Origin: Hydnum rufescens UP504
Taxonomy: Eukaryota > Basidiomycota > Agaricomycetes > Cantharellales > Hydnaceae
Reading direction: 5' to 3'
Assembly: GCA_014904985.1 (NCBI GenBank)
Contig: MU129012.1
Coordinates: 97,421 to 161,420 of the forward strand
Length of the DNA: 64,000 nt
Part shown: positions 1,024-59,705 of the stretch, piece by piece
Layout: the number at the start of each line of letters is the position of its first letter
How positions within the stretch are numbered: position 1 is the stretch's first letter
Translations under genes and position numbers: made by a program
The notes under the pieces: generated by a model
Databases searched by the model: none
What the model saw: only the letters and a program-made list of their open reading frames with translations
What the model was told of the DNA's origin: nothing

Positions 1024-1030
1024 GGGACCG

Positions 1031-2376: not shown

Positions 2377-2448
2377 TGTTAAGTCCATATAGGGGGTATT
2401 GCCACTTCGGGCTGATTACATAATTAACTCTTTATTTTTATTCCAACA
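2377..2448 (-). repeat. Copia 3' LTR (72 bp)
   Basis: On the + strand it begins TGTTAAGTCC and ends TTCCAACA. It is nearly identical to 7008-7079. The outer boundary is fixed by an uninterrupted copy of the array intron (near 51790), where array sequence continues exactly where the LTR begins here. The LTR is very short for Copia. Confidence 0.85.
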
Positions 2449-2460
2449 CTCCCCCTCAAG
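2449..2460 (-). other. Copia polypurine tract
   Basis: On the minus strand the sequence reads CTTGAGGGGGAG directly before the 3' LTR, the expected plus-strand primer position. The pol stop codon (TGA, 2456-2458) lies inside the tract. Confidence 0.75.
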
Positions 2461-5919: not shown

Positions 5920-6620
5920 TTAAAGCACTCCACATTCTTCCCGGCCTTCCTTCTCTGGCCATTAGAGTAAAATGCCTCTTCACTATTATTAGATTTCCCT
6001 TTGCCTTTCTTTAGGGATCGTCGGTCGTACTCGTCTGTCACGAGTCGAATTACTAGGGTGGGGGTAATGGACTTGCCGCTAAGATCCGCTGCGGCCATAA
6101 TTGAATTTATCGTATTATCGTATGAATCCGGGAGTGATCCCAACAATGTATTTCCGTATTCTTCGTCTGTAATTGTGGCCCCCATGGCCGCCAATTGCTC
6201 TTTTAGATCCGTGAGTTTATCGAAATGCGCCCGGACATCGTCGTCTGCGCCACAGCGTGTATTTTGTAATCGTTTACGTAAGTCGACCAAAATTAATTTA
6301 GATCGCCCTTCGTACAAGGCCCGGAGCTGTTCCCACACCTCCTTTGCCTTCAATCCGGCCTTAATCTGGCCGAACACCATATCTGGGACCGAGCCTGCCA
6401 CTAGTTGCTTTACCATGGCCTCGTCCCTTCTCCATCTTGCTTCCGGTGTAAGCCCATCAACCGTACCGGCCCCGGAATAATCTGACGTAATCGTATCATT
6501 CGAAAGGTGCTCGAGTAGCCCCTTGGCGTCCAGAGCCCACATAATTCAGTCATGGTACATGACCCAATTGGCCCCGTCTGCTGCTAATTTCGTTATCCTG
6601 ATCTTGAATTCGTCGCTCAT
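5880..6620 (-). pseudogene. Copia gag (UBN2-type) with nonsense codon and frameshift
   Basis: The start is probably ATG at 6620 (MSDEFKIRITKLAADG). An in-frame TGA near 6547 separates this leader from the main frame, which continues IMWALDAKGLLEHL. In related gags this position is usually Arg, so CGA to TGA is likely. The body carries the retrotransposon gag fold, with VWEQLRALYEGRS-like and LPDSYD motifs. Near its C-terminus is a CCHC knuckle, ECFNCHRKGH...C. The knuckle is split by a frameshift near 5895, and the protease frame overlaps there. The product would be the capsid and nucleic-acid-binding protein. Confidence 0.8.
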
Positions 6621-12002: not shown

Positions 12003-17197
<5,195 letters not shown>

Positions 17198-26672: not shown

Positions 26673-28560
26673 TCAGCGGTAGAGGCTCAACACCCCCCCT
26701 TCGTTCGTACCATCGTGCATAATCACACCTCTCGCGTTGGGCGCCGTGGGGCGTAAATTGTCTATCACAAGAGAGCGAGATGACGTAGAGAAGGATGGGG
26801 AAGACAGTGCAGAATGAAAGGAAGTCGTCATCCCGTCCTCGAGGTCATTCTCTGAAGGGGTGGACCTAGGCACGGAAGATTGCGGGGACGACGGATCTGA
26901 CAAAATGATCGATGATGGCCTTCGAGGATTTCTCGGAGGAAGTGGAATGGGATTCGAAGTCCACGACTTGGAGCGCAGACGTCCCGTGACTTGAAGAGCG
27001 TCGCCATTGGTAGGTCTAGGGAGGTCAGACACCCCCACAGGAGGCGCAGTCTGGACCCAGACTTCTGGGCCACGCGACTCCGCTATCCCATGTTCTTTCC
27101 TAACACTCTCTGGCAGTGGCGGAACGGGTGGAACTGAGGTCTCTTGCAGATAGCGTCTTGGGTCGAGGGAGCCGAAAGAGACGACGCGCTTAACCCCTTT
27201 AAGACCCTTTCCTTCCCGGAGGTGTACATCTGTTGGAGGAGTGTTGGAGCGTGAACGGCGACGTGGATTCATATCAGTAATGGGATGTCCCTCCAATTCA
27301 GTCACAAACGAGGACGGATCCGTCAATCGAATTGCAGGGGGACTGGGTTGGAAAAACGAGTGTGATTGAGAAAATGGGTCGGGCGTATTGTCGATGCCGA
27401 CTGCTGGTGATTGGGGAATCGGTGACAACTTGAACGGCACTGCCAATACCTCTACAGCGGAGCGACTCGCCACTCTGATCGCCTCCAGACTTTTCCGAGC
27501 CTTGGACTGCATAATCGAAAACAGATTAGAGTGGATCTGCATGAGAATCAAGGAGCACATACCCTTTTGGGGGGCGTCATTGAGTCAATTGAGGAAGTTG
27601 ATGGTGCACGACTGAAGGGAACAAATCAATCCCAATTCTTGTCAGGACCCTAGACAACACATACACTGGCGGTGGGCGTCTTCGTGGTTCGTCTGGGGGC
27701 TCGACAGGTGGTGCCGGAGGAAAGGGTTGCCATCGTCTCTGCTTTAATTCCTCGGCCAGCCTTTGATTCTCCTTGGTCAACGCATCATTAGCCTCCTGAA
27801 GGCCTTCCAGCTGCTTCCTACTCTCCTCCAGTTCACTGTCGGAGAGTAATCAGTTATTGGGCGTCCGCTGCGCCATAATATGTCGTGGTGAACACCCACA
27901 GTCTGATCCTTTTATACTCCGCCGTAGCATCCGCCTGTGCCCTCATAGAGCTGTCAAACAGGCCCGAAGAGTTAGAAACAATAATGATCTACGCGATGGT
28001 TAGGCATGACTTACCTTTTGAGGGCGCTCTCAGCCCGACATTTGCTCCTCCAGGCTGATTCAAGGCGAATTCGAGAAAGAGTTTCGCGAGCCTCTTCAGT
28101 AGCTACGGCAAGACGCCTGTACGGAGACAAGAGCCATGAGATTAATTGTCAGATGATATACTAGCCAAAGGCAGATACGCGCATGGTGATCATATCAGCG
28201 CGTTTTTTGAGTCTGCGGCGGATGCTGTTTTTATCCCTGAGCAAATGCGAAGTGACGGGCCGTCAGCTCAGTAGGCGAAGGGGGCTTTGAACGATATGAT
28301 AGGCTGCAAAAGAGAACAAAGGAAGACGTACGACCCTTTCCCTGCGGATTTGTAGAGGTGCACTTCACGATGTACGATATGCGCGTACAGGGCAATTCTT
28401 GCAGAGAGCAGAGCGATAGATGGAGCCTCCCCGGGACGAAGACTAACAGCTGATGTAGGAGAGCGGTGGTACCAGCTGGGCCGCGACGATTTTGATCGGG
28501 ACTTGCTCGAATGTAGAGGTGGATGAGGGAGTGTGGGAGGAAAAAGAGTGTTTTACACAT
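26673..28560 (-). CDS. Coiled-coil, largely disordered protein of unknown function (multi-exon)
   Basis: Read from the right. A Ser/Arg-rich N-terminal exon (about 28560-28340) has SRPSWYHRSPTSAVSLRPG followed by ALLSARIALYAHIVHREVHLY. A basic RRRLKKRADMITMR exon lies near 28160-28230. EEARETLSRIRLESAWRSK, a likely coiled coil, lies near 28020-28110. Next comes AEYKRIRLW near 27900-27950, then ALTKENQRLAEELKQRR near 27740-27790. The last exon (27560-26673) is Pro/Ser-rich with patches such as VPPVPPLPES and ends TGA/TAA-proximal SLYR. Several introns are canonical (for example GTAAGTC near 28015). The exact start and some phases are uncertain because the 5' part lies in a tandem duplication with indels. 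No catalytic domain is visible. A scaffold or cytoskeletal role is only a guess. Confidence 0.55.
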
Positions 28561-29113
28561 ACTACGCGGCGCGCCGCCAGTGCCTTAAAAATGAGGGACA
28601 GGGTGATGAGGTAGGGATATCACAAGGATATCAGAACCTTTGTTCGGGAACAGATGTTTGGTCCCGGTCCCGATTGAGTCACTACCACCTCCAATAACAA
28701 AGAGAGCGATCGTCTTTCTCCTTTTTTTTGTACATATTCCTTGCAAGACTATTGTTCCAGACCTAGCTAGGGCGACATTGTCGTCACTATGTGTGCCATT
28801 ATTACCATATCCATTCTTGGAGGCCGGAGGTGGTCGAGTTCCGTCGACTTCGTGAGCCACACTGTATAGTACATTACATGTCCTTTGCTTTTTTATGGTT
28901 CCTTCTGAGCTTTACATTTAGCTCACCCTATTTTGCAACCACCGAGGAAACAGCTACAGTAGTGCGTATTACTAGTCACTACTCCCATATACAGCAGCAA
29001 GATGATCAACCAATCAGACCCAGAGCGTGTGCTGCTGGAAACTGATTTGGTGAACATGGGTTCATGATCAACCTATCAACACATTCACTCTCGCCCATCA
29101 GGTTTCAGAGTAT
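28097..29113. repeat. Tandem duplication, copy 1 (1,017 bp)
   Basis: It matches 29114-30122 over its whole length with only scattered differences, mostly single-base insertions or deletions (for example GAAGGGGG versus GAAGGGG, GTGTTTTAC versus GTGTTTTTAC). It contains the 5' exons of the coiled-coil gene and its upstream region. Copy 1 is joined to the rest of that gene. Confidence 0.9.
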
Positions 29114-30122
29114 CAGTACTACGGCAAGACGCCTGTACAGGAGACAAGAGCCATGAGATTAATTGTCAGATGATATACTAGCCAAAGCGATACGCGCATG
29201 GTGATCATATCAGCGCGTTTTTTGAGTCTGCGGCGGATGCTGTTTTTATCCCTGAGCAAATGCGAAGTGACGGGCCGTCAGCTCAGTAGGCGAAGGGGCT
29301 TTGAACGATATTAGGCTGCAAAAGAGAACAAAGGAGACGTACGATCCTTTCCCTGCGGATTTGTAGAGGTGCACTTCACGATGTACGATATGGCGTACAG
29401 GGCAATTCTTGCGGAGAGCAGAGCGATAGATGGAGCCTCCCCGGGACGAAGACTAACAGCTGATGTAGGAGAGCGGTGGTACCAGCTGGGCCGCGACGAT
29501 TTTGATCGGGACTTGCTCGAATGTAGAGGTGGATGAGGGAGTGTGGGAGGAAAAAGAGTGTTTTTACACATACTACGCGGCGCGCCGCCAGTGCCTTAAA
29601 AATGAGGGACAGGGTGATGAGGTAGGGATATCACAAGGATATCAGAACCTTTGTTCGGGAACCGATGTTTGGTCCCGGTCCCAATTGAGTCACTACCACC
29701 TCCAATAACAAAGAGAGCGATCCTCTTTCTCCTTTTTTTTGTACATATTCCTTGCAAGACTATTGTTCCAGCCCTAGCTAGGGCGACATTGTCGTCACTA
29801 TGTGTGCCATTATTACCATATCCATTCTTGGAGGCCGGAGGTCGAGTTCCGTCGACTTCGTGAGCCACACTGTATAGTACATTACGTGTCCTTCGCTTTC
29901 TTATGGTTCCTTCTGAGCTTTACATTTAGCTCACCCTATTTTGCAACCACCGAGGAAACAGCTACAGTAGTGCGTATTCCTAGTCACTACTCCCATATAC
30001 AGCAGCAAGATGATCAACCAATCAGACCCAGAGCGTGTGCTGCTGGAAACTGATTTGGTGAACAATGGGTTCATGATCAACCTATCAACACATTCACTCT
30101 CGCCCATCAGGTTTCAGAGTAT
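29114..30122. repeat. Tandem duplication, copy 2 (1,009 bp)
   Basis: A direct repeat of 28097-29113 with no spacer. The junction falls in CAGTA(G)CTACGGCAAG. Copy 2 leads into unrelated sequence at 30123. The repeat may be a real duplication or two alleles placed head to tail by the assembler. Confidence 0.9.
29230..29571 (-). pseudogene. Duplicated 5' fragment of the coiled-coil gene
   Basis: It repeats the N-terminal exon seen at 28340-28560 (SRPSWYHRSPTSAVSLRPG), but the gene body is absent on its 3' side because copy 1 intervenes. It could serve as an alternative first exon if the duplication is real. It is meaningless if the duplication is an assembly artefact. Confidence 0.5.
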
Positions 30123-43050: not shown

Positions 43051-46044
43051 CAGCCTGGTCAGCCAATTATCCACATCTAACTAGATATTTCAAGAGTGGT
43101 ATTTATATACTCTAACTAGATCTCAGAGGCTTGGGGCCCCCAGAGGCCCCTGCAATACAGTTGAGGGTGCCCATCAAGCAGCCCAGGGGCCCCTGCCATA
43201 GTTTTATTTATCTATTTATTATTATATACACTTGCCTGGGGGGCTCACCCATGCACCCCAGAAGAGCAGCCAGAGGCTGCTCTTCTTGCACAATGTAGCT
43301 AGGGAGAATACATACCAGGGGGACTCACCATATATTGGGTCACACTCACCATGGTGGGTGTGGTCCTGGGGCCACTCATTGGGCATGTTCAGTTCTTGTT
43401 TGGTGTTGCTGTTCATTGCGTCACCCTTTGGTGCATTGCTGTTTGGCATGTTGCCATTTGGGCCCTTGTTCACTTTGTGGGTTTTCATCGTGGCCACAAT
43501 CTAGAGTACTAAAAGAAGTAATGAAAGATCTATTAGTACAGATATTCAAAGCAGTGCAAAAAGAGCAGCTTTTGCTGCTCTTTTTGTGTGGGTGTAGCTA
43601 CTGGGGGTGGGGACTCACCTTATATTGTACCACACACCTGCTGCAGTGGGTGTGTGGTTCCTGGGGCCCTCATTTGGCATGGTGCTGTATGTTGCATCAT
43701 TGGGGTGTTGCCATTTGGGCTCTTGCCATTTTGTGGGTTATTGTTGTGTGTTGGATGAGGCTGCAATCTAGAATAATTAAGATGTTAGTAAAAAATTTCA
43801 AAGCAGTGCAAAAAGAGCAGCATTCACTGCTCTTTTTGTGTGGCTGTATCTACTTGGGTGGGGGACTCACCTTATATAGTGCCACACACCTGCCATAGCA
43901 GGTGTGTGGTTTGTGCAGCCATTCACATTGGTTGTGTTTTCATGGTTTTCTTTGTCATGTTATATGGGAAGGGGGGGTGGGTCCTTTGGTGTCTCCCTGG
44001 GCTTGTGTTTGGCAGGTTTTCACCTTCAGGACATAGAATAAAATATTAGATTAGTTAAATATTAAAACCAGCACAAAAAGAGCAGCTTTCACTGCTCTTT
44101 TTGCACAGGTGTATACACTGGGGGGACTCACCTTCTATAGTAAGCCACACCCCTGCCATAGCAGGTGTGTGGTTCATGCAGCCACTCATTGGGCACATTG
44201 TCATCTGTTGTGGTTGCATTGGTCACATTTTTGTTCATGGGGTTTGGCTTGCAGACCTTCATTTGGCAGCTTTGGAGTTGCAGGGTTTGGCTCAGGTTTG
44301 GCAGGCTGGTCAGTTAAATGGGGGACCTAATTAGGTACCACTTTCAGGGCAGAAAATGGTACCTAAGAGGTCCCCAGACAGTATGGCTGAAATACAGCCA
44401 TTCCAATTCATTTCAGCCAATCCATGGCTGTGCTAGATTATATATTTATTTATTATTATTATTATTACTACTATTATTATATACATATTATCCCCCCCAG
44501 GGTCTGCCACCACAGGGGGGGCATGGTTCCTGCAGGTCACACACCTGCATATATGCACCATACCCACCACAGCAGGTGGGGTTCATATGCCCTGGTCAGG
44601 GCTGGTTCCATTTGGCACTCCCTTGAGGGTGTGGGTTTTCATTCATGGGGGCTCATCCATGGTTTTCATTTGTGGCATGTTATTTGGCAGGTTTGTGATT
44701 GGGGGTTTATGTGGGTTCTGGTTCAGGATCTAGAGAAATTAAAAATGAAACATTAGTTTAACAGTAATGCAGTGCAAAAAGAGCAGCTTACACTGCTCTT
44801 TTTGTGCCACAAGAGTAAAAAAGGAAAAGGAAAAGAAACATACCTTGCAGTACCCCACACCTGCTGCAGCAGATGTGGGGTACTGGGGCCCTGTACTCCA
44901 GCTTGTATGGTGGGTTGTATGTGTCCTCCCTGCAGTTTTCATTTGTGGGGGGTTGTTTGTGGGTTTCATTTGTGGCATGTCATTCTGTGGGTTTCTGGTT
45001 GGGCATTTGCACGGGTGCTGGCCAGGATCTAGAGAGATAATAATAGGTTAGTTGAAAATGAATGCAACACAAAAAGAGCAGTGTATGCTGCTCTTTTTGT
45101 GCCACAAGAATAAGAAATAAAAAAATATAACTTACTTTGTAGTACCCCACACTCACTGCAGTGGGTGTGGGGTACTGGGGCCATGTACTCTGGCTCATAC
45201 ATAGTGCAGTTTGTATGTCCTCCCTGTGGTTTTCATTTGTGGGGGGTCATTCATGGGTTTCTGGTTGGGTGTTTGCACAGGTTCTGGCCAGGATCTAGAG
45301 AAATAATAATGGGTTAGTTGAAAATGAATGCAATGCAAAAAGAGCAGCATATGCTGCTCTTTTTGCACCACAAGAATAAGAAATAAAAAAATTAAACTTA
45401 CTTTGTAGTACCCCACACCTGCTACAGTGGGTGTGGGGTACTGGGCCATACTCTGGCTTACATGTACAGTGGTTTGGACCAGTCCCCCCAGGTCCCATCA
45501 TTTGGGTGTTGATAGGTGGGGTTACAGGGGGTTTTGTGTCAGTATTTGTTGGCATGAGAAGTGAAGACCTACAATAGAATAAAAAGTTGTAAATTAGTTA
45601 AGAATTAAATGCCACACAAAAAGAGCATGCTGCTCTTTTTGCACACCTGTGGGGGGTAGGGACTCACCTTATATAGGACCACACACCTGCCATGGCAGGT
45701 GTGTGGTTCCTGGGGCCCTTATTTAGCACAGTTGCATCCTTGTTTGGTGTGTTGCCATGTGTCACATCATTTGGTGCATTGTCATGTGTCATGTTGCTTG
45801 GTGTGTTGCTGTCTGTTGTGTTGTTTGGTGCATTGCTGTTTGTTGCATTGCCATTTGGGCCCTCATCATTTCATGGGTTTTTGTTGTGCCTTGGACCAGG
45901 CCTCAATCTAGAATAATAAAAGATAAAAGACACATTAGTATAAAATTTCAAAGCAGCACAAAAAGAGCAGCAAAAGCTGCTCTTTTTGTGCCATTGTATC
46001 CACTAGCAAAAAAACTCACCTTGTGACCACACACCTGCAGTGGG
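43051..46044 (-). repeat. Array A2: nine intron modules, minus strand (left-arm type)
   Basis: Introns on the minus strand at about 43230-43328, 43501-43618, 43768-43870, about 44033-44131 (acceptor mutated), 44730-44843, 45029-45135, 45295-45401, 45569-45667 and 45908-46019. Each contains the A5-GAGCAGC hairpin. Each donor is preceded in the exon by the ACACACC/GGTGTGT hairpin. Branch sites read CTAAC or CTAAT 15-30 nt before the acceptor. Exon-like pieces are 140-600 bp with no conserved reading frame. Direction is outward from core 2. The exonic hairpin next to the core (46031-46044) is split by a hAT MITE. Confidence 0.85.
44318..44520. repeat. GGTACC hairpin plus AT-rich block (P3 unit), copy in A2
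   Basis: A hairpin with arms around TAGGTACCA and TGGTACCTA (44330-44372) is followed by a stretch ending in an ATT-repeat run (44450-44480) and CCCCCCCAGGGTCTGCC. An inverted copy lies at 56590-56815 in array A5, in the same relative place. Confidence 0.75.
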
Positions 46045-46718
46045 TATGGATGCTGTGGTTCAGGTTTAAACCTGTGGAACCTGAGTTTAAACCTGAACCT
46101 GACCCAGGTCAGGTTCCATTGGGGTCAGGTTTCATTTCATTTTCTTCAGGTCAGGTTCAGGTTTTGCCCTTGCCCTGAATCCAAAAACTGGTCTCAAACC
46201 AGGTTTAAACCTGAACCTGAAAGCTAGGGTGTAGGTTCCATTCCATGTAAATTGACCACTATTCTGGCACCAAATCTGGCAATTTACACATGTGACTATA
46301 GTTCTGGAGTCAGAAGTCACATGACTTGGCCATCAAATGAGGTAATTGGTGCAGGTCACAAGTCACATGACAGAATGTAGTGACTAAATACCATCTCCAG
46401 AAGATGTGTGAGCAGTAAATTGAAGTGAAAGGGGGCTAGGAAGGAGATGTGGATCTAAAGCAGGATGTAAAGGGAGTGGCAGAGGCAGAGACTTGAGCAG
46501 AGGGTGTAGATATTCTGTAGTACCCCCTGAAAATGTTGGCTTCCCTCATACCTCAGGTTTCAGGTTTAAACCAGGTTTAAACCTGAACCTGACCTGAATG
46601 AGACTGAACCTCAGGTCAGGTTCAGGTTTTTCCCTCATGGGTGATTTTGGAACCTGGTCAGGTTTAGGTTTGGCCAAATTGAGCAAAACCTGAGAAAAAC
46701 CTGACCGTGGCAACCATA
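46045..46718. mobile_element. hAT-type MITE with 8-bp target duplication, 674 bp
   Basis: Ends are TATGGATGC (left, diverged) and GCAACCATA (right). Flanks are GCAGTGGG at 46037-46044 and again at 46719-46726. An 8-bp duplication is typical of hAT elements. Arms are built from CAGGTTCAGGTT/AACCTGAACCTG repeats. The insertion splits an exonic hairpin of the array. It belongs to the same family as 53622-54346. Confidence 0.8.
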
Positions 46719-46801
46719 GCAGTGGGGGGTGTGGTCATTTGGTTGCCTTTCCAGGTGGCTGCCTGTTGTGGTTTGCAGAGATTCAAAACAAGATGGAAAC
46801 T

Positions 46802-47437
46802 CAATGCCAGCAATTGCCAGTACCCAAAAGTGCCCAAGTGCTGGCACTACAAGCACAATACATAGTAATAGCAGGTATATAGACATGGAATAAATTAATA
46901 TTCAGTAAATATTTTCCCAAAAATGAAAAAGACAGTGATAGTGAGTTAGAGCTCAATAAGGCATGATATCCCTAATTGCAAAGTGGATTGGCCATTTCTA
47001 TGGGTCAGAATTGGCCCAAATTTAAATATATTTATGGTATATATGCACCCTGCATGGGCAACTAATTATACTGGATGTTCCTGCCATTTTTCAATTTTTC
47101 ATGCCTTCAATTCCCTAAATAGGGAATTGAAGGCATGAAAATTGAAAAATGCCAGAATCATCTGATATAATTAGTTGCCCATATAGGGTGTATATATATC
47201 ATCACTATATTTAAATTTGGGCCAATTCTGATGTGTGGAAGTGACCCAATCCACTTTGCAATGAGGCATATTGTCCCTTATTGAGCTCTGGCTCATTATC
47301 ATCCTCTTCTTCACATTTTTAAACAAATATTTATTGTATATTCTATATTCCATGTCTACATGCTTGCTATTAATCTGGATTGTACTTGTAGCATCAGCAC
47401 TTGGGTGCTTCTTGAGTATTGGCAATTGCTGGCATTG
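46802..47437. repeat. Palindromic core 2 (foldback, about 636 bp)
   Basis: Two arms of about 318 bp, roughly 85-90 percent complementary by eye, meet at CCCTAAATAGGG (about 47119). Outer ends are CAATGCCAGCAATTGCC and GGCAATTGCTGGCATTG. It separates array A2 (minus) from A3 (plus). The symmetry continues into the flanks, where the first exon of each arm shares GGTTGCCTTTCCAGG-like sequence. Confidence 0.9.
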
Positions 47438-49403
47438 AATTTCACAAGTACACACCACACACCCAGCAACAGAAAGGTGAGTGCATGACCACAACACAAC
47501 ATCAACAGCAACAGCAGCAACAGCAGCAGCCCCAGTGCATGACCATGACCACACACCTGCTGATGCAGGTGTGTGGTCATAAGGTAAGTTTTGTCTCAGT
47601 AGATACAATAGCACAAAAAGAGTAGCACAAGCTACTCTTTTTGTGCCACTTTAAATTCTTATACTAACATAGCTTTTATTATTTTAGATTATGGTCTAAG
47701 GCCAAGACCAAAACCCACCACACAATGAGGGCCTGAATGGCAAGAGCCAAACCAAAAGAAACAATGGACTGCCCAATGGGTGGCCCCAGGAACCACACCT
47801 GCTGTGGTGGTGTGTGGTACCATTTAAAGTGAGTTCCCCCCCCCCCAATAGATACCATGGCACAAAAGAGCAGCAAAAGCTGCTCTTTTTTGTGCAGGTT
47901 TTAAATTTTTTACTAACACTTTCATTTACTGCTTTAGGCCAAGCTGTCCACCCATGAATGACACCCCACATATGACCATGTGAATGGAAACTCATGAACA
48001 AGCAACAATGCCCACAGGAAGCCATGAAGAAGAGCAGGAAAACAGGGGCCACACACCCACATGGTGGGTGTGTGGCAATATAAGGTATGTAATTTTTTTT
48101 AATAGCTCCAGTCATGCAAAAAGAGCAGCAGTTGCTGCTCTTTTTGCACAACCTTTGAATTTTAACTAATGTCTTAGTTTTTTCAGGCCAAGCTGTCCCA
48201 GCCCAATGTGCAAACCATGCAGTCAGGAGCCCAAACCTGCCCACCCACCAGTACACCAAAGAACCCCCCCCCAAACAATGAGGCCTGATCAGCCAGAACC
48301 CCAGCAGCAATGTGTAAATAGTGAACATGCCAAATGAAACCCAACCAAACAGACCCAGCCAAATGAAACCACCCAAACCCCATGACACCATACCCAATGA
48401 AACAATGCCAAACAAAAATGTGAGAGGTGGCCACATGCCACCTGAGTGACTATGCAAACCACACCCGCTGTGGCAGGTGTGTTATAATATTAGGTATGTC
48501 TAATCCCACCGGTGCCAAAAGAGCAGCAGAAGCTGCTCTTTTGGCACCTCTGTTTTTTTTTTTTTAACTAATGTATTATTATTCACTGTTCTAGGTCCCT
48601 TCCCTACATGAAATGACAATGCAACATGCCAAGGAACACCCCCCAGATGAAACCCAGGATGGAGAACGCATGACACAGGGCCACAGGGACCCCAGATGAA
48701 CCACACCTGCTTTGGTGGGCATGTGATAATTCTAAGGTAAATACAACCATGCAAAAGGAGCAGCATATGCTGCTCTGGCTTTGCTTGTTTTTTTTTTTTT
48801 ACTAACATATTATTTATTATTCTAGGTTGTCATCTGGACTCACAACCCCCATGACCCCACTGAATGAACACAGGAGAATGACAACCCACCCACCAAACAA
48901 AACCCACAAATGGCAATGAGTTGAAACTGTGACCCAAGCCCCAGACGAACCCCACACCCACTTCAGTGGGTGTGTGGTGATTTTAAGGTCAGTACAACTG
49001 CACAGAAGGAGCAGTGTATGCTGCTCCTTTTTCATGGCTCTTCTTTTTCTTTTTTTACTAACATATTCACTATCCTAGGTTGTCAGAATCAAGACCCATG
49101 ACCCCACCAAAGAAACACACAAGAATGGAAACCCACACAGCCAACCACCCCAGATGCAAAATGAACATGTGACTGTGGTACAACAAGGTAACTGTTTTTT
49201 AAAAATTCCTATACACACAATGATGCAAAAGGAGCAGTGCAAGCTGCTCCTTTTGTGTCACTTTGAAATTTTTTTTACTAACATACTTTATCATTGTAGG
49301 ATTCAAATCAAGGCTCCCAAAATGATGACCCATCCCAACAGCAACCCATAACCCATGCCCAATGGTGAAGTGTGAAGCCACACCCCCAGTACCACACACC
49401 CAC
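47438..49403 (+). repeat. Array A3: seven intron modules, plus strand (right-arm type)
   Basis: Introns at 47584-47687, 47829-47937, 48085-48186, 48494-48594, 48737-48825, 48988-49078 and 49188-49299 all have GT donors, a central 14-16 bp hairpin, a CTAAC/CTAAT branch site and an AG acceptor. Exon-like pieces between them are 141, 147, 307, 142, 162 and 109 bp, so not all keep one frame. Most end in the exonic hairpin 8-20 nt before the donor. A CAA/CAG run (47497-47530) lies in the first exon. The array ends where a solo LTR splits the next exonic hairpin. Confidence 0.88.
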
Positions 49404-50616
49404 TGTAAGCAGGTTGGTTAAGAACCAATCCAACTACTGTCCACATCGTTGAGGAGGACAAATGAAGGGAGCCATGGGGACAATTCGAATATTCAGGTCT
49501 GGGGAAATGAAGGTCTTTCTGGTTAATAGAAAATCCCAATGAACAGTAATTGCTCAAGGGAATAGATCAGTGTCACAAAATTAGATGTCAAGGCCACACC
49601 CTGAAGTTGTCCTCTTGACTATTCAGTCTTAATGTGGCTGTACACAGTCTTGACAAGTGGGAAATCTCCTCCAGACAGCAGCAATACTCAGTGCCTCAGA
49701 CTGTGATAGGGGGAAAAACCAACTATTTACATGCTCCCTCCCCTTTATATACATTCCAGAGGACAATTCAAAATTCCGGAAGAAAAGAGGAGATAAGGGA
49801 AGCATAATGAAAAAGAAATGAAGCTAAAAGCTTCAAAACTGGTGGAGATATTCAAGAATCAAGTGAAAAAGAGACAAAAAACACTTTACAAGGCATTCCT
49901 CCCTTGAAACTGGATAGATTCCCTTAAGGAAAGGTGGAATAGGTCGCCCTGAGTGCCCTTTGCATCGGAATTTAAGAGGGCCAGAACTAATTTGTCATTT
50001 GTGTTGGTGGAGCAAGGGGGGAGTCATGAGGAAGGGGTTGTCTTGTGAAAAATGGAGTTCTTGTCTGTTCATTTTGCTCTTGGTACTGTTCGATGCGCAT
50101 TTTTAACATCTTTTAGGGTGTGGTACGTGCAAACGAATCTGATAAGAATTGGCTTCGAAACTCAAGAAATACTCCTTCAGAGTATGAATCATGGAAAGAT
50201 ATTGTTTCAGGGATCGCATTTTTGATCCGTTTGTTGCATCTTTGGTACCATTCAATAGGTACTATTTGTATCTTTCTGGGAACAGTTGTTCTGAGTCGAT
50301 CCAATCAAAACTGACAGAGAAACTCAAAAAATACTCCTTGAGAGTGACATAATCCCTTTTTGAATCATGTGATGGGTCCGTGGGTCCAGAACGAAGGCCA
50401 GGCACAGTCTGCATCATTACATAATCACAATTCTTCGCCCTTAAGGCAAAGGAATGATGTGGAATGATGGGTTTTGGACATGTAGAATTTGGACTGTTTC
50501 TCCAATGAATGAAGGGTGTGAAAATTAAGGATTGGATGGATGATCAATTCGTTTGTTTGGTTGGAAAATTGGCCTCAGATGGGGATTCTATGGTGTAGGG
50601 ATTTATCCCTCCAACA
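49404..50616 (-). mobile_element. Solo LTR (family LTR-3), reverse copy, 1,213 bp
   Basis: On the minus strand it runs TGTTGGAGGGATAAATCCC...CCTGCTTACA. It carries a TATATAAAGG box (about 49744 in + coordinates) and matches 39901-41853. It has split an exonic hairpin: the left half ends at 49403 and the right half (AAGCAGGTGTGTGG) resumes at about 50623. No clean target duplication was seen (CCCAC versus CTGCC). Confidence 0.7.
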
Positions 50617-50896
50617 CTGCCCAAGCAGGTGTGTGGTGCTACTATATAGTTTGATTTTTTTTTTTAAATCTCTATGCACAGTACTACACCCACTGAAGCA
50701 GGTGTGGTACTACTTGGTTTTGTTTTTTGGATTTCTATAGATGGTACCACACACCAGCAGGTGTGGTGAATTTTTAGATAAATAAATAAAAAATAAACAA
50801 GTCAATAAGAATAAAACACAGGACTGCTGAACAAAACCCCAGGGGTAAGCATATGTATAATAGTGATAATAAAGAAACAATTATAAATGGAACTAT
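50617..50896 (+). repeat. Distal end of arm A3: exonic-type hairpins only
   Basis: Three ACACC...GGTGT hairpins at about 50620-50640, 50680-50710 and 50740-50768, spaced about 55-60 bp apart by T-rich linkers. The intronic hairpin is absent. An AT-rich TAAATAAATAAA tail follows. The same layout, inverted, is at 51150-51345. Confidence 0.7.
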
Positions 50897-51033
50897 CCCA
50901 CCTTGGTCAGTCATCTAAGCCTACCTAGTTAGGTACCACTCCCGGGGCAGATAATGGTACCTAAGTAGGTCCCATCACTATTCTGGCTGAAATGGCCATT
51001 TTATGATTTGCACTTCAGTCAACTGAATTGGCC
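50897..51033 (+). repeat. Left terminal inverted repeat (137 bp)
   Basis: It matches the reverse complement of 56827-56962 with about ten differences. It contains the hairpin TAGGTACCACT...ATGGTACCTA (50929-50972). Confidence 0.85.
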
Positions 51034-53621
51034 GAAATGGCTGAAAATTGGCTGAAAATTGGCCAAAACTGGGACTTAGAGAATCTCAGACTTGCACCAG
51101 GCCATACTGGCTTATCGGGGATAATATGTTCCATTTATATTTATTTATTTATTTATTTATTCAAAAATTCCATTAAAAAAAAACATACCACACATGCACA
51201 GTGGGTGTGGTACCATCCATATAAATCAAAAACAAAGTACTTAGTAGCACCACACACCCACTAGGGTGTGTGGTACTGTCCATATAAATATTAAAAAAAA
51301 CTACTTGGTAGCACCACACACCCACTAAGGCAGGTGTGTGGTACCAGGGGTGCAGCTTGGCATGTCACCGTTGGGTGTGGGTTATGGATTGCCATTGAGG
51401 GGGGTTGTTGTTTTGGGAGGATCCTAGAATAGTAGTGTATGTTAGTAAAGAAAATTTCAAAGTGATGCAAAAGGAGCAGCTTGTGCTGCTCCTTTTGCAT
51501 TGTACATATAGAAATAAAATAAAATAAAAATCTTGTAGTACTACACCCACTGAAGTGGGTGTGGTACTCATTTTGCACCATGGTCGCACAGTTTGTACTT
51601 GGTATGGGTCATCATTTGGGGGGTTGGTTCATTTGCAGGTTTCCATCCTCGTGTGTTTGTTCAGGGTCATGGGTCTTGATTGGGGGGTTCAAATGACAAC
51701 CTAGAATAATAAATAATACATTAGTAAAGAGGAAAGAAGACAAGCCATGCAAAAGGAGCAGTGTATGCTGCTCCTTTTGCGCAGTTATACTTGTACATGG
51801 AGATTGCTTACCTGAATGTTACCACACACCCACTGAAGCAGGTGTGTGGCTCTGTCTGGTGTTTCTGGCATCTTGTGCCATGGGCTCCTGTTCATGGGTT
51901 TTGTCTGGCAGTTCATCATTGGCAGGTTTCCTTGTTTTCACAGGTCGCATCATCATTTCCCAGGGGAAGGGGTTCATTTGGCAGGCCTTTGGGCCTCATT
52001 CAGTGGGTTGTGGTTCACAGTTCATGTGGGTTTGGTGTGGGTTGTGGGTGCAGACAGACAATCTATGATAATAAATAATATGTTAGTGCAAAACAAAAAA
52101 AAAACAAAAAAAGAAAAGCCATGCAAAAGGAGCAGCATTGGCTGCTCCTTTTGTGTGATGGTGCTGGAAAACCAATGCACCCACTTCAGTGGGTGCATGG
52201 TTCCTGTGGCCTTCTGGCATGGTTTTGGCTGGTTACAATTCATGGGTTGTGCACAGGTTGTCATTTTGGGGAGGGGGGGGTTCATATGGCAGGTCTTCAT
52301 TTATTTCTTGTCATTTGGGTGGTAGTCTAGAATAATAGATAATATGTTAGTTAAAAATTAAAACCAGCACAAAAAGAGCAGCATTGGCTGCTCTTTTCAT
52401 GCTGGTAGAGGTGCAGGCATAACTTATCTTATATAGAACCACACACCCACCACAGCGGGTGTGTGGTTTGCTTGGCAGGTGCATTCTCACTTGCTGTGGC
52501 TCGCCTTTGTGTTTATCGGGTATTCCATTTGGTGTGTTTTCAGTTGGTGCAGTGTTGTTTGAATCCTGGCTGGTTGGGCCCTCATTGTTGGTGGGTGTGT
52601 GGTCTGGCCCATTTTGGTGGCTCTCTGTTCTGCTCATCCTTGTTCAGCAGCTCTTCATTTCATTGGTTGGAGGTTGGGCGATAACCTAGAAAAGTTGATA
52701 GTGTTAGTTAGTAATTAGAACCTGCACAAAAAGAGCAGCACTAGCTGCTCTTTTTGTGCAGTTGTGTACACAAGATACTTACCTTACATACCACACACCC
52801 ACCACAGCAGGTGTGTGGTTTGTGTGACTTCCTGTTAAGGGTTGTACTCGAGGCGAAAGATACGATGACGTAATCGAGTTGAATACAAGGAAATGCCCTT
52901 AAGGCGATTGACAAGGTAGTCATGAAGTGGGGATTACGTAAGTCATGAGAGACGAGTATGTATGAGGAAGACCAGCTTCTTGAGACTTAATATGCAAAGG
53001 TTTTAAGATGAGAGTCGTGAGCGATAACTGAGATCACAAGAGAGGAATTCAATCGGTTGACAATATATTCTCGATCTTCTAAAGAACGAGTGTACATCAA
53101 GTAACTACTTATACTATTAGAGATCAAAAGGGTTTATGGATAAAGGGGTGTTGAATAAAGGAGGGATGTATATAATAGGAAATGCTGAAAGAGGAAGGCA
53201 CAATGGCAGTGAGGGGGAAGGTCATGTGATGGCGTGATTGGCTTGGTTATTCTGCATATGTAAGTGAGGTTACGAGTACGACTTGTAACACTTCCTTGTT
53301 TTGTGCAGGCTATCATTCGGCAGGTTTTCATTTGCCCTGGCTTTGGTTGGGCTGGTGCAGATGTTCATTCAAATCATGACCTAGAATATTAAAATGTGTT
53401 AGTTAAAAATTCAAAAAGGCACAAAAGGAGCAGCTATTGCTGCTCCTTTTGCACAGCTGTATCTATTGGGGGGGGAACTCACGTTAAACAGTGCCACACA
53501 CCTGCTGCAGCGGGTGTGTGGTTCCTGGGGGTACCCATTGGGCGGTCCGTTGTTTGTTTGGTTTGGCTCTTGCCATTTGGGCCCTCATTGTGTGGTGGGT
53601 TTTTGTCTGGGGCCTTAGACC
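51034..53621 (-). repeat. Array A4: modules 2-7 and hairpin-only block, minus strand (right-arm type)
   Basis: Hairpin-only block: three exonic hairpins at about 51186-51345. Introns (minus strand): about 51424-51530 (donor damaged), 51701-51811, about 52063-52170, 52327 to about 52432 (donor GT changed to AT), 52686-52782 and 53381-53482. Their spacer words and order match array A1 introns (for example CAATCTCC(A/G)TGTAC, ATCTTGTGTAC, CCCCCCCAATAG). Exon-like pieces are mostly 140-250 bp, each ending in the exonic hairpin. A solo LTR lies between 52833 and 53290. Confidence 0.85.
52833..53290. mobile_element. Young solo LTR (family LTR-4) with CTTCC target duplication
   Basis: 458 bp, TGTTAAGGGTTG...GACTTGTAACA, flanked by CTTCC at 52828-52832 and 53291-53295. 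The uninterrupted site is present in array A1 near 486-495. A TATATAATA box lies near 53169. Unlike the surrounding element it keeps many CpGs, so it inserted after, or escaped, the decay of its host. Confidence 0.85.
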
Positions 53622-54346
53622 TATGGTTGCCAAAGTCAGGTTCAGGTCAGGTTTTGCCCCATTTGGGCAAAACCTGAACTTAACCAAAACCTGAATCTTC
53701 TCAATTGGCAAAACCTGAACCTAACCTGAAGAAAACCTATCTTAGGTTAGGTTCAGGTTAGGTTCAGGTTTAACCAAGGTTCAAACCTGAAATCATGAGC
53801 CCCTTCAGACAGGAGAAATATCTGAGCTCAACACTGATTTTAACCATAATCCAGAATGAGTCATCAATTCTGGCAAGTTCCAGAATTATGTAAGCAGGTT
53901 CCTTGGTGGAGAAATATGTTACTTTGAAGTGAAGTTATACATAAAACCTCATGAACAGTTTATATTGACTATACATAGTCTATGTATAGTCAATATAAAC
54001 TTTGTATGAGGTTTTATGTTTAACTTCACTTCAAAGTAACCTATTTCTCCACCAAAAAACCTGCTTACATAATTCTGGAACTTGTCAGAATTGATGACTC
54101 ATTCTGGATTATGGTTAAAATCAGTGTTGAGCTCAGATATTTCTCCTGTCTGAAGGGGCTCATGATTTCAGGTTTGAACCTGGGTTAAACCTGAACCTAA
54201 CCTGAACCTGAAAACATGGGGGCCCAAAACCTGAACCTGACCTGAGGAAAATTACATGAAACCCGACCCCAATGGAACCTGACTTGGGTCAGGTTCAGGT
54301 TCAAACTCAGGTTTTCCAGGTTTGTAACCTAACTTCAGCAACCATA
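53622..54346. mobile_element. hAT-type MITE with 8-bp target duplication, 725 bp, largely palindromic
   Basis: Ends are TATGGTTGC and GCAACCATA, flanked by CTTAGACC at 53614-53621 and 54347-54354. The empty site is seen near 47690 (in reverse) and near 160-175. The interior is a near-perfect foldback centred at about 53979 (TATACATAGTCTATGTATA). The outer arms are made of CAGGTTCAGGTTAGG-type repeats. Confidence 0.88.
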
Positions 54347-54554
54347 CTTAGACCATAATATAAAATAATAAAAGCTATGTCAGTATAAGAATTTGAAGTG
54401 GTGCAAAAAGAGTAGCTTATGCTACTCTTTTTGCACTATTTGTACCTACTGAGACAAAACTCACCTTATGACCACACACCTGCAGCAGCGGGTGTGTGGT
54501 CATGTGTTTGCCTTTCTGGGCCATTGCTGGTGTGGTGTGTGTAGCTGTGCAATT
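54347..54554 (-). repeat. Array A4: core-proximal module 1
   Basis: Minus-strand intron about 54357-54464, with a hairpin whose arms read AAAAAGAGTAGC and GCTACTCTTTTT. The G-to-A variant (GAGTAGC) is shared with the first module of A1 and of A3, so module identity is inherited by position. The acceptor is altered. The first exon then reaches core 3. Confidence 0.8.
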
Positions 54555-55194
54555 CAATGCCGGCAATTGCCAGTACTCAAAAAGTGCCTAAGTGCTGGTG
54601 CTACAAACATAATACATATTAGTAGCAAGTATCTAGACATGGAATACATGCTATATAATAAGTATTTATCCAAAAATGCCAAGAAGAAGATGATAATAAG
54701 TCAGAGCTCACTGAGACATGATATGCCTAATTGCAAAGTGGATTGGGCCACTTCTATAGGTCAGAATTAGCCAAAATTGAAATATATTAATGGTATATAT
54801 GCACCCTACATGGGTGACTGATTATATTGGACGATCTGTCCATTTTTCGATTTTTCACACCCTCAATTCCCTAATTAGGGAATTGAGGGTGTGAAAAATC
54901 GAAAAATGGACAGATCGTCCAATATACTCAGTCGCCCATGTAGGGTGCATATATACCATTAATATATTTCAATTTTGGCTAATTCTGACCTATAGAAGTG
55001 GCCCAATCCACTTTGCAATTAGGCATATCATGTCTCAGTGAGCTCTGACTTATTATCATCTTCTTCTTGGCATTTTTGGATAAATACTTATTATATAGCA
55101 TGTATTCCATGTCTAGATACTTGCTACTAATATGTATTATGTTTGTAGCACCAGCACTTGGGCGCTTTCTGAGTACCAGCAATTGCTGGCATTG
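54555..55194. repeat. Palindromic core 3 (foldback, 640 bp)
   Basis: Arms of about 320 bp meet at CCCTAATTAGGG (about 54874). The inner 180 bp is almost perfectly complementary. Ends match cores 2 and 4. Both arms read outward into intron arrays. Each arm encodes the same meaningless ORF on opposite strands, as expected for a palindrome. Confidence 0.92.
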
Positions 55195-56589
55195 AGTTTG
55201 CATCTTCCTCTGCATCTCTGTTACCACAACAGGCAACTGCCTGGAAAGGCAACCACATGACCACACGCCTGCTGCTGCAGGTGTGTGGTCACAAGGTGAG
55301 TGTTTTTATTAATAGATACAAAAGTGAAAAAAGAGCAGCAAAAGCTGCTCTTTTTGTGCTGCTTTGAATTTTTAACTAATGTGTTGTTTATTATACTAGA
55401 TTGAGGCCTGCTCCAAGGCCCATGAAAGCCCACGAAATGACAAGGGCCCAAATGGCAATGCAACATGCAGAAACGTGCCAAACAGCAACACAACACACAG
55501 CAACACATCAAACAAGGGTGCAATGCACCAAACAGCAACACACCAAATGAGGATGCAACACATGGCAACATGATATGCAGAAACCCACCAAACAAGGACA
55601 TGACCATGCCAAATGAGCCACACACCCACCACAGCAGGTGTGTGGCACTATGTAAGGTGAGTCCCCACCCCCCCAGTAGCTACAGCTGCACAAAAAGAGC
55701 AGCAAAAGCTGCTCTTTTTGTGCTGCTTTGGAATATTTCACTAACGTGTGTTTACTTATTTTAGATTGAGGCCTCGTCTAATGCATGACGAGAGCCCAAA
55801 CAGCAATGCAATGCACAGAAACATGGCATGGCAATGTGACATACAGCAACATGACACAGCAACATGACACATGGCAGCGCGCCATGGCAATGCAACACAC
55901 GACAGCATGACATGGCAACGTGCCAAACAAGGGCACAACTGCATCAAATAATGCCCCAGGAATCACACACCCACCATGGCGGGTGTGTGGTTCTATATCA
56001 GGTGAGTCCCTTCCCCCCCCCACTCCAGTAGCTTCAGCCACACAAAAAGAGCAGCAAAAGCTGCTCTTTTTGCATGGTGCTTATTTCTTAACTAATTTAA
56101 ACATAGTATTTTGTAGGTTTCAACTTCTCTCATGAATGAATACCGACAAAGAACCTGCTGTAATCCCACTTATCGACACCCAAACAATGGGGGACCCATA
56201 TGAACTGCTGTGTGTACAAGCCCACATACACAGCCCCAGTACCCTACACCTGCCGCAGCGGGTGTGGGCACAAGGTATGTCTCATGTTTTGTTTTATTTC
56301 TTAGTCTTGTGGTGCAAAAGAGCAGCATAAGCTGCTCTTTTTGCACTGCATTCATGTTCTACTAATATTTTATTCCTTATTTATCTAGATCCTTGACCAG
56401 AATCCCCATGAGCCCCCAAGCAGAACCAGCTGAACAAGATGTGGCGAACAATAACTATGAACAAACCCCCACAAATGAAGACTGACCACTCGAGGGAGTG
56501 CCCAAAAGGAACTGGCCCCTGACTGCACTCGCTGTGGAGGGTATGGTGGGTATATGCAGGCGCATGACCTGCATAAACCATCCCCCCCT
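55195..56589 (+). repeat. Array A5: four intron modules, plus strand (left-arm type)
   Basis: Introns at 55296-55399, 55657-55764, 56002-56116 and 56275-56388, all GT-AG with the A5-GAGCAGC hairpin and a CTAAC/CTAAT branch site. Exon-like pieces are 257, 237 and 158 bp and rich in CAACATG/CAACACA repeats (codons for Asn, Thr, Met, Gln). Each ends in the exonic hairpin. The order corresponds to array A2 of the other copy. Confidence 0.88.
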
Positions 56590-56826
56590 GTGGTGGCAGA
56601 CCCCAGGGGGGATAATATGTATATAATTATAGTAGTAATAATAATAATAAATAAATATATAATCTAGCACAGCCATGGATTGGCTGAAATGAATCGGAAT
56701 GACCATATTTTGGCTGTATTTTGGCCATACTGTCTGGGGACCTATTAGGTACCATTTTCTGCCCTGAAAATGGTACCTAATTAGGTCCCCAATTTAACTG
56801 ACCAGCCTGCATTTTGGCCAATTCTG
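56590..56826. repeat. GGTACC hairpin plus AT-rich block (P3 unit), copy in A5
   Basis: An inverted counterpart of 44318-44520. The central hairpin is nearly perfect: arms around GGACCTATTAGGTACCATTT and its complement, near 56738-56792. Confidence 0.75.
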
Positions 56827-56962
56827 GGCCAGAAGGTTGACCAAAGTGCAAATCATAAAATGGCCATTTTGGCTGGAATAGTGATGGGACCTACTTAGGT
56901 ACCATTATCTGCCCCAGAAGTGGTACCTAACTAGGTAGGCTTAGATGACTGACCAAGGTGGG
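56827..56962 (-). repeat. Right terminal inverted repeat (136 bp)
   Basis: The reverse complement of 50897-51033. It contains the hairpin TAGGTACCATT...AGTGGTACCTA (56897-56935). Confidence 0.85.
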
Positions 56963-57580
56963 TTTGGGGTTGCAGGGCTTGGCTCAGGTTTGGGGTTGTG
57001 GGGTTTGGCTTGGGTTTGAGGTCAGGGGTTCACTGGGGTTCAAGTCCAAGATCTAGAAAAATAAGATGGTGTTAGTTAAAAATTAAAGCAGCACAAGAAG
57101 AGCAGCTTATGCTGCTCCTCTTGCACCATTAAATTTAAATTTAAAAAAACTCATCTTGTAGTGCCACACACCCACCACAGCAGGTGTGGTTCCTGGGGCC
57201 ATACATTGGGTGCATTCTCATCTGTTGTGTGCTCATTTGACATGTTGGTGTCTGTCACATGCTCATTTGATGTGTTGGTGTCTGTCATGTGCTCATTTGA
57301 TGCATTGTCATTTGGTGTGTTACTGTTTGCTGTATCACCATTTGGGCCCTTGTCATTTCACCAGGTTTTGTCAGATGCCATGATCTGGAAGAATAAATGA
57401 GCAGTTAGTAAAAGTATTCAAAGCAGTGCAAAAAGAGCAGCTTTTGCTGCTCTTTTTGTGCCATTGTATCTACTGATAAGGAAACTCACCTTGTGACCAC
57501 ACACCCACAATGGTGGGTGTGTGGTTGTTTGCTTGCCTTTCCAGGCAGTTGTTGTGGTAGGTCCAAGAAAGATGCAGACT
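56963..57580 (-). repeat. Array A6: two intron modules, minus strand
   Basis: Introns on the minus strand at 57053 to about 57152 (donor AC changed to AT on the + strand) and 57385-57489. Hairpins are at about 57095-57125 and 57427-57460. The exon between them carries a repeated GTGCTCATTTGA(T/C)GTGTTGGTGTCTGTC motif (57225-57300). They read outward from core 4. Confidence 0.8.
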
Positions 57581-58726
57581 CAATGCCAGCAATTGGTGGC
57601 ATGCAAAGAGCACCCAAGTGCTGGCACTACAAGCACAATACATATTAATAGGAAGTATCTAGGAAAAAATAAAGACTATATAGCAACTATTTTTGCAAAA
57701 AAAAAAAGAGAAAAGGATGATAATAATAAGGAAGAGCCCAATAAGGCATGACATGCCTACATTGCAAAGTGGATTGGGCCACTTCTATGGGTCAGAATTG
57801 GCCCAAATTTAAATATGTTGGTTGTATATATGTGTAATATAGTGTATTACATAATTAAGTTAGGACTCAAAAGTCATGTATATATGGCAGATTCCACAGA
57901 ATCAAAAATAGTTAACCTTTGCCCAGATCTTCATCACCTAGTGAGAAACCATGAACCCTGCTTCTGTCTCTGTCCTGCCTATCTGGCTGCTTGGTTGGCT
58001 TGCTAGTAGCCATTAATCACTAGCTGGGTCTTTCCTCTGGCCCCTGCAGTTGTCTGTCCCTGGATAACCTGCACAACAGTAAGTAGAGCATCTTCTCTAC
58101 TTGCTGACCCCTCCTTCTCCTTAGGCAGTGACTGTGCCACTTGGCCAGTCACTACATTATACCTCTTTCATTATCTCCCTTCCCTCACAACCTTTTCCCC
58201 TGGGCTCAGAGCAAAGCCAGTGCTTAGCTCTGTGTCCAGCTCCCCTGCCCAAAGCTAGTGCTGAGGGCAGTGTGATTGCCTCTTCATCTTATCCCCTTAT
58301 TCCCTCCCATCTGGCTCCCAACCTGTCAACTCTGCTTTGTCCAAGTATGACAACAAGTGCCCTCCTGAATCCAGGAAGCACTTCATTACAATATGCACCC
58401 TATGTGGGAATTGAGGGTGTGAAAAATTGAAAAATTGAAGGATCATCCAATATAATTAGTCACCCACATAGGGTGCATATATACAACCAACATACTTAAA
58501 TTTGGGCTGATTCTGACCCATAGAAGTCACCCAATCCACTTTGAAATGTAGGCATGTCATGCCTTATTGGGCTCTTCCTTATTATCATCATCCTTTTGTT
58601 TTTTTTTTTGTGAAAATAGTTGCTATATAGTCTGTATTTTCTCCCTAGATACTTCCTATTAATATGTATTGTGCTTGTAGTGCTGGCACTTGGGTGCTCT
58701 TTGCATGCCAGCAATTGCCAGCATTG
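57581..58726. repeat. Palindromic core 4, split by a solo LTR and missing its centre
   Basis: Left arm 57581-57832 and right arm about 58391-58726 match the arms of core 3. The solo LTR lies in the left arm. After the LTR the left arm jumps from GCACCCTATGTGGG straight to the right-arm sequence GAATTGAGGGTGTG, so the innermost part of the palindrome has been lost. Confidence 0.85.
57833..58390 (-). mobile_element. Solo LTR (family LTR-2), reverse copy, with ATATG target duplication
   Basis: 558 bp, flanked by ATATG at 57828-57832 and 58391-58395. It matches 41234-41778 in reverse. Removing it restores the ATATGCACCCTA sequence of the other cores. Confidence 0.9.
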
Positions 58727-59705
58727 AGTTGCATCTCTTACCACCAAACAGGCCACCACCTAGAAACCCAGGCCAATGACCATGCACCCACAGCAGCAGG
58801 TGTGGTCATTCAAGGTAAGTTTTCTTTTTACTGTAGTAGATACAATGGCACAAAAAGAGCAGCAAAAGTTGCTCTTTTTGTGCTACTTTGAATTTATTTA
58901 CTGACCACCTTTTAATTAGTTCTAGGGTATGGCATAGCATCCAATGAAACCCCCCCCAAATGAGACCCAATCAACCAGGGGCCCCAGTGGCAACACACAA
59001 AATGAAACAAAGCCAAACACAATGAAACAGCACCAAATGAAAACATGAGAGGTGGCCATGCACTGCCACAGTGGCCACACAAACTGCACACCCACTACAG
59101 TGAGTGTGTTGTTCTATATAAGATAAGTGCACCCCTACAGCACAAAAAGAGCAGCAAATGCTGCTCTTTTGGCACTGGTTTTAATTTTTTTAACTGATAC
59201 ATCCTTTATTCTAGGCTGCCACAAATGAAGACTGGTGAAATGAGTGCCCCCCAAAATGATAACCTGCCCACAAAGCAAAGGCCACCAATGACAATGCACC
59301 AAATGAAGACATGAGACAACACCACAACCCATATGAACCACACACCCACTATGGGGGGTGTGTGGTTCTATAGAAGGTAAGTACCATTGGATACCTGCAA
59401 CAGCACAAAAAGAGCAGCCCTGCTGCTCTTTTTCACTGGTTTGAATTTTTAACTAACATATTTATTATTCTAGGTTATCACCTGACATGAAGACTCACCA
59501 AATGAACCCCCCCTGTGGAAATGACAATGCCCCACCAAACAAAAACTACAAATATGACCAGCCAAGGAACACCCACCAGACCCAACTTGGGAATGGGAAC
59601 ACATGACACAAGGACCATGGAACCCCCAGACAAACCACACCTGCTGAAGCAGGTGTGTGGCAATCTCAAGGTGAGTACCCCCCACCTTTATGCACCTGAG
59701 GCAAT
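58727..59705 (+). repeat. Array A7: three intron modules plus an orphan donor, plus strand
   Basis: Introns at 58815-58925, about 59123-59214 (donor AT instead of GT) and 59377-59473, with hairpins at about 58849-58885, 59143-59175 and 59404-59432. A fourth donor (GTGAGT at 59671) follows the last exonic hairpin, but the intron is replaced by a GGTACC-type hairpin (59713-59740) and unrelated sequence. The array is truncated there. Confidence 0.82.

Follow-up and report, generated by a model that had tools for sequence, protein, structure and literature searches.

Within a 64,000-nucleotide stretch of Hydnum rufescens UP504 DNA (here called the window; C104:97421-161420 in the 63.2-Mb, 539-contig assembly against which searches were run), we delimited an element, designated A, that occupies positions 50899-56809, starts with CACCTTGGTCAG and finishes with CTGACCAGCCTG. 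The interpretation that we favor, with a probability of about 0.62, is that A is a non-autonomous cut-and-paste transposon of Hydnum, moved in trans by a KDZ (Kyakuja-Dileera-Zisupton) transposase and carrying two divergent multi-intron non-coding units. The family to which A belongs, with hundreds of apparently non-coding members, seems to be a type of passenger transposon not described before, and, judged by titles and opening lines, the literature searches turned up no description of such an element. An excerpt of PMC7550596 counts H. rufescens among the first ectomycorrhizal Cantharellales to be sequenced.

Borders, nesting and genomic copies of element A

The preliminary description of this locus, made from the letters of the window, had placed one element at 50897-56962, bounded by 137-bp terminal inverted repeats (TIRs). 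An inverted similarity does exist between these ends (50897-51023 against 56962-56836, 127 bp at 93.7% or, alternatively, 152 nt at 87%), but each of the paired sequences is a left end, one of A and the other of B, the element of the same family in which A is nested. Homology of copy L012 to the window begins at 50899 and stops at 56809, and L009-L013 together with other copies are flush at the same ends and have unrelated flanks. Once A is subtracted, B aligns end to end, as a series of ordered pieces, with L015, L016, L018, L020, L012 and A (~65-94% identical, with unaligned stretches in between), and both of its outer ends are flanked by CCAAACC, a target site duplication (TSD) of 7 bp. The sequence at 56810-56960 thus belongs to B, and the copy ends together with the alignment of B exclude the proposed pair as the termini of a single element.

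The genome was searched with the left terminus of A as first described, the best 40 of 419 candidates were scored, and 20 loci were fetched. Both ends in consistent orientation were present in 13 of the 20 (L009-L013, L015-L020, L022 and L023), including L017, a copy that bears a KDZ gene. L014 and L027 stop at a contig border, and a right end was not found in L024, L025, L026 and L028 within the 10 kb read of each. L021 (2307-6850) has, instead of one terminus of each type, two left-type termini in inverted orientation. L012 is 96-98% identical to L010, L009 and L011 and 94% identical to L013, while A and L012 are 89.9-93.4% identical over three main pieces; family members measure roughly 4.5-6.4 kb. 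Genome-wide, the left-end motif (a 21-base pattern with some open positions) occurs 341 times and the right-end motif (22 bases, likewise with open positions) 322 times, with none for either reversed control, these being counts of ends and not of intact elements. Right termini are duplicated in L018 (5661/5765) and L019 (5544/6013), which suggests imprecise transposition or recombination between ends.

Fourteen copies were examined for their target sites: four have a TSD or a candidate for one, four have a target deletion, and neither call was made for six (L020, L022, L011, L015, L019 and the KDZ copy), the flanks of L023 lying outside the comparison. For L009, an empty site establishes an 8-bp TSD, TCGGTTTC, of which 7 of 8 letters are kept, the left copy differing by a single CpG-type change. 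Candidate 8-bp TSDs are seen in L013 (7/8 letters) and L016 (6/8; weak when taken alone), with changes that fit CpG decay. With the 7-bp duplication around B, these sites have the 7-8 bp length that is expected of a non-autonomous KDZ transposon. The flanks of L020 and L022 match different places, and no empty site was present among the scored candidates. A Helitron-like integration without TSD, first suggested by the flanks, is excluded for L009 by its empty site.

Two nested insertions, a miniature inverted-repeat transposable element (MITE) of 725 bp and a sequence of 456 bp, interrupt the left arm of A and are absent both from L012 and from the partial family copy at the left edge of the window. 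The preliminary description had missed them, and the left arm as it was drawn took in this unrelated sequence. The partial copy just mentioned (1-2376) is inverted, its main pieces being 82-88% identical to the left arm of A, and it contains an insertion of its own (~846 bp, 1025-1870) that is also matched in L015, L011, L022 and, partly, L025. To the right of B, at 57020-59500, the window contains more modules and palindrome-like sequence, probably another damaged copy.

Intron-like modules and the central palindrome

The arms of A are built of modules. Each starts with an exon that closes on a palindrome of the CACACC...GGTGTG type; the donor that comes next is commonly GTGAGT, and behind it lie the hairpin AAAAAGAGCAGC-loop-GCTGCTCTTTTT, ACTAAY as the branch point and YAG as the acceptor. 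Seven introns reading left and four reading right had been proposed, and this agrees with the seven left and four right hairpin modules that flank the center of A. Ten of these 11 fit the strict hairpin pattern, the module at ~51752 being imperfect. Called introns are mostly ~90-125 nt long, with one of 173. The automatic splice rule was passed by only two left-arm introns of A; the donors that the first splice-site caller chose in left arms were poor, and its successor recognizes fewer introns in the left arms of several copies. Neither caller enters into the module statistics that follow.

The exon-end palindrome by itself gave an orientation to 159 of 197 hairpins (the others lie too close to the end of a locus, lack the palindrome or are ambiguous), and 112 were left once near-duplicates had been removed. 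A strong donor was found in 67 of the 112 on the sense strand versus 1 on the antisense strand (shuffle mean, 12.4; maximum, 20; 100 shuffles), and a strong branch point with acceptor in 87 versus 1 (shuffle mean, 7.2; maximum, 15). Under looser definitions, the donor was found in 69, the branch point with acceptor in 98 and both in 64; on the antisense strand the first two counts were 8 and 16, with shuffle means of 24.1 and 44.5, respectively. Spliceosomal signals are therefore present in the proper order and in a strand-specific manner across these non-redundant modules. The hairpin loops are also strand-specific, GNRA accounting for 34 of 105 non-redundant tetraloops in the sense orientation and for none of 105 in the antisense orientation. 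Some core positions of the stems vary in pairs; at position 7 of stem B, a paired change separates the 159 oriented modules into 112 with A-T and 46 with G-C, with 1 intermediate. Matches in Rfam were all under the gathering score and named no known RNA family.

Exact hairpin cores number 4,921 in the genome, compared with 1 for the reversed control pattern; the hairpin pattern is palindromic, and each place is therefore reported on both strands. Those listed on contigs C1 and C2 mostly form arrays with ~200-400 bp spacing, with few single places, and in several arrays (e.g., C1:370731-374240) the loops on the two sides of a gap face opposite ways.

The most economical reading of the modules, going by their sequence, would be two divergent, spliced non-coding units. 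The cargo of A would then be two apparently non-coding units arranged head to head, in which the central palindrome probably provides both arms with the same start region and a putative central promoter, and the arms, as tandem exon-intron modules (donor, tetraloop hairpin, branch point and acceptor), would be transcribed outward. The introns would really be spliced out, and splicing may help the element, for example through greater stability or export of its RNA or through less harm to the transcripts of the host.

The modules can also be explained by three alternative rationales: (i) they are repeats in subterminal position that bind the transposase, and the intron-like signals are the relic of one captured and tandemly amplified exon-intron fragment with no role in splicing; (ii) the arms are decayed multi-exon protein-coding genes of an originally autonomous element; and (iii) the introns are introners inserted singly into a non-coding element. 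DNA transposons often have inverted subterminal repeats, and the first rationale accommodates the mirror orientation of the arms, the inconsistent coding of the spliced arms and the symmetric wobble tolerance described below. It is opposed by branch point and acceptor letters that stay fixed despite divergence (mean column identity of 52% across 16 modules that were picked by hand and have ragged ends), by the strand specificity of the splice signals and by the recurrence of the same modules in an element with different termini (one, on C19), which is unexpected for the sites of one transposase; we consider it unlikely, if worth keeping in mind.

The second rationale draws on the gene-like layout of the arms and on 5 of 24 predicted spliced arms whose open reading frame (ORF) is longer than the 95% shuffle value. 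On the other hand, exon phase is mixed among the 24 arms, with no consistent ORF, no frame is free of stops in the spliced arms of L009, L010 and L012, and a protein query from one spliced arm had no match at an E value of 0.01 among 48 word-sharing candidates, leaving this explanation improbable. In three of the five arms with a long ORF, a longer one is found on the antisense strand. The absence of an enzyme gene that had been noted for the element is borne out by Pfam: two ORFs of 150 amino acids or more overlap it as first drawn, and neither has a Pfam domain.

The third rationale, to which we give the least credence, would account for intron-like units, mostly of ~90-125 nt, that resemble one another across modules and for a hairpin core present thousands of times. 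Yet the exon-end palindromes and the introns repeat together, which is the pattern of tandem duplication, and no intron-less module was noticed, although no systematic search for one was made. Furthermore, Pezizomycotina are the sole non-aquatic group among the eight introner-bearing groups given in an excerpt of PMC9860276.

The central palindrome of A, proposed at 640 bp, was confirmed. Among 15 elements compared (L023 left out), it is present in 13 and missing from L020 and from the C19 element. Its two arms are 93-99% identical in 9 of the 13 (96-99% in A, L009, L010, L012, L013, L015, L021 and L022; 93% in L019) and less alike in L018 (87%), L016 (86%), L011 (83%) and B (82%), while the same arm is mostly 69-84% identical between distant subfamilies. 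A, L009, L010, L012 and L013 form a close subfamily, with palindromes 96-99% identical between copies; L015 and L022, which are 92% identical to each other, are each more distant from L019 (86-89%). A hairpin-less intron-like stretch is readable by eye in the palindromes of A and L012, its signals not being conserved in the other aligned subfamilies. Taken together, the initial picture of a mobile, apparently non-autonomous element with ordered, outward-reading intron-like modules stands, and its architecture recurs in other copies, although the ends assigned to it do not hold.

Mobilization and a second carrier

The copy L017 (C120:118966-124716) bears both family ends and encodes KDZ (PF18758, E value of 2.6e-46) and CxC1 (E value of 5.7e-9) domains. 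The right-end 12-mer is exactly common to the KDZ copies on C120, C2 and C19, and both family ends were found only in the C120 copy. A search for the KDZ family returned at least 154 KDZ matches from the best 150 of 584 candidates, and one KDZ protein of this assembly is 92% identical, across 82% of its length, to BS47DRAFT_1300358 of H. rufescens UP504. The right end that is common to KDZ copies and the family, combined with the termini and TSDs reported for KDZ transposons (see below), make mobilization by KDZ likely rather than proven: a KDZ transposase would recognize CACCTTGGTCAG.../...CTGACCAGCCTG and move A in trans, the sequence pointers being the termini, the 8-bp TSD and the one KDZ-bearing copy. 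The preliminary description had called for an autonomous relative with the same TIR; the C120 copy is one in having both termini, but its left 875 bp are not shared and it is possibly a chimera. Among the matches listed, C50:260873-264088 has a left terminus directly adjoining an oppositely oriented KDZ fragment. In L028 (3032-4084), we observed an ORF with the Tc1/mariner-type transposase domains HTH_Tnp_Tc3_2 and DDE_3.

The KDZ element on C19 is interrupted by a 3.4-kb insertion (L045/L041, ~525-3933 of the joined stretch) that has TAGGSTATTGCAC ends and an 8-bp TSD, AGTGCAAC, and contains five module hairpins and module-like sequence; its site is empty, with one base different, in the C2 copy. 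The terminal sequence of this insertion occurs at ~40 further places among the best 40 of 79 candidates, the copy on C19 being the one that was read. We tentatively consider, as a possibility well short of our favored interpretation, that the intron-hairpin modules are a selfish RNA-level cassette riding transposons with differing termini, that is, a divergent pair of spliced non-coding RNAs in which splicing signals and GNRA hairpins would aid persistence and gene conversion would keep the palindrome halves alike.

Several observations weigh against a KDZ-moved transposon with two spliced non-coding units: (i) four of the eight resolved insertions are target deletions with no TSD, namely, L012 (~71 bp), L010 (~139 bp), L018 (~625 bp) and A itself, which replaced ~68 bp of B (counted by eye); (ii) GTRNGT is missing from the tested interval in 43 of the 112 modules; (iii) wobble tolerance in the 159 oriented modules is symmetric (G-U 64 and A-C 56 in stem B; 71 and 59, respectively, in stem A), and since G-U does not clearly outnumber A-C where the outer stem positions decay, there is no sign of present RNA-level selection; (iv) the five long ORFs exceed their shuffle values at 127 versus 115 (L009 right), 175 versus 101 (L013 right), 121 versus 115 (L015 left), 177 versus 106 (L021 left) and 118 versus 110 (L022 right); (v) in L016 and L018 the same palindrome arm is 93-95% identical between copies versus 86-87% for the two arms within a copy, so that homogenization is not universal; and (vi) the left 875 bp of the C120 copy are not common to the other KDZ copies found, of which those on C2 and C19 have homology running ~10 kb further left in different sequence, with no end reached, so that the C120 copy may be a recombinant. 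In addition, KDZ elements on C2 and C157 were followed for ~14.9 kb and their left end was not reached, and the module hairpin is absent from the upstream stretches that were read.

The ~4,900 hairpin cores, located in the copies read within intron-like units of mirror arms, offer a natural system for the study of introns as transposon cargo and, perhaps, of the advantage they bring. The family is likewise a system for examining how tandem intron modules arise and how palindrome halves stay alike while subfamilies diverge. For genome annotation, such loci could be taken for genes.

Features of the window and comparison with known systems

Feature coordinates are collected in Table 1. Elsewhere in the window, we observed a direct tandem duplication of ~1 kb, 97.6% identical (28096-30122), remains of a Copia-type retrotransposon (gag by Pfam; 5883-6545, minus strand) and a multi-domain shikimate-pathway ORF (12563-14524, minus strand; shikimate kinase, dehydroquinase and shikimate dehydrogenase by Pfam), which we take to be ARO1-like. 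Sequence at ~4127-5359 matches the flanks of L012.

Table 1. Coordinates of elements A and B and of the features within A (window positions)
Feature	Position	Strand	Remark
Full element A	50899..56809	+	alignment of genomic copies
Left terminal region of A	50899..51050	+	left TIR of the preliminary description; inner border approximate; genome search and copy alignment
True right terminal region of A	56735..56809	-	imperfect inverted match to left terminus of A; inner border approximate
Element B, main part	44302..50898	-	same family as A; right end of B at 44302
Element B, left terminal 151 bp	56810..56960	-	right TIR of the preliminary description; separated by insertion of A; alignment of B minus A with family copies
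Central palindrome of A	54551..55198	.	324-nt arms, 97%
Left-arm modules of A	51440..53525	-	reading left; hairpins at ~51470, 51752, 52126, 52372, 52729 and 53424, CACACC-type palindromes between
First left-arm intron, predicted	54362..54464	-	approximate, coordinates by eye; 3' AG seemingly altered relative to L012
Right-arm intron 1, predicted	55296..55399	+	GTGAGT ... CTAAT ... TAG, with hairpin
Right-arm intron 2, predicted	55657..55764	+	
Right-arm intron 3, predicted	56002..56116	+	
Right-arm intron 4, predicted	56275..56388	+	GTATGT donor
hAT-like palindromic MITE, 725 bp	53622..54346	.	TIR TATGGTTGC, 8-bp TSD CTTAGACC; not part of element proper
Nested insertion, 456 bp	52834..53289	.	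7-bp TSD ACTTCCT; not part of element proper

In foldback and Galileo elements, long terminal inverted repeats form most of the element. The family described here resembles them in its inverted layout, with repeat-rich arms about a center, and differs in that its arms are intron-like modules instead of long terminal inverted repeats, its termini being short and imperfect and its palindrome central. With Pack-type elements it has in common a non-autonomous structure with exon-intron-like sequence, but its modules are tandemly amplified and inverted about a palindrome, and no host source gene was identified. The likeness to KDZ transposons lies in the CA...TG termini reported for Kyakuja-1_LB and -2_LB, in the 8-bp TSD of Zisupton (both from an excerpt of PMC12730594) and in the one copy with family ends that encodes KDZ and CxC1 domains. 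According to the same excerpt, the two Kyakuja elements have 7-bp TSDs and no TIRs, whereas the family here has imperfect inverted ends; in A no transposase was found, and a palindromic center with arms of intron modules is not mentioned in that excerpt. Introners, as described in the excerpt of PMC9860276, are repetitive sequences with spliceosomal signals, many of them with signatures of DNA transposons, and in repetitiveness and signals the present family is similar to them; unlike introners, it has many introns within one element, arranged as tandem exon-intron modules.

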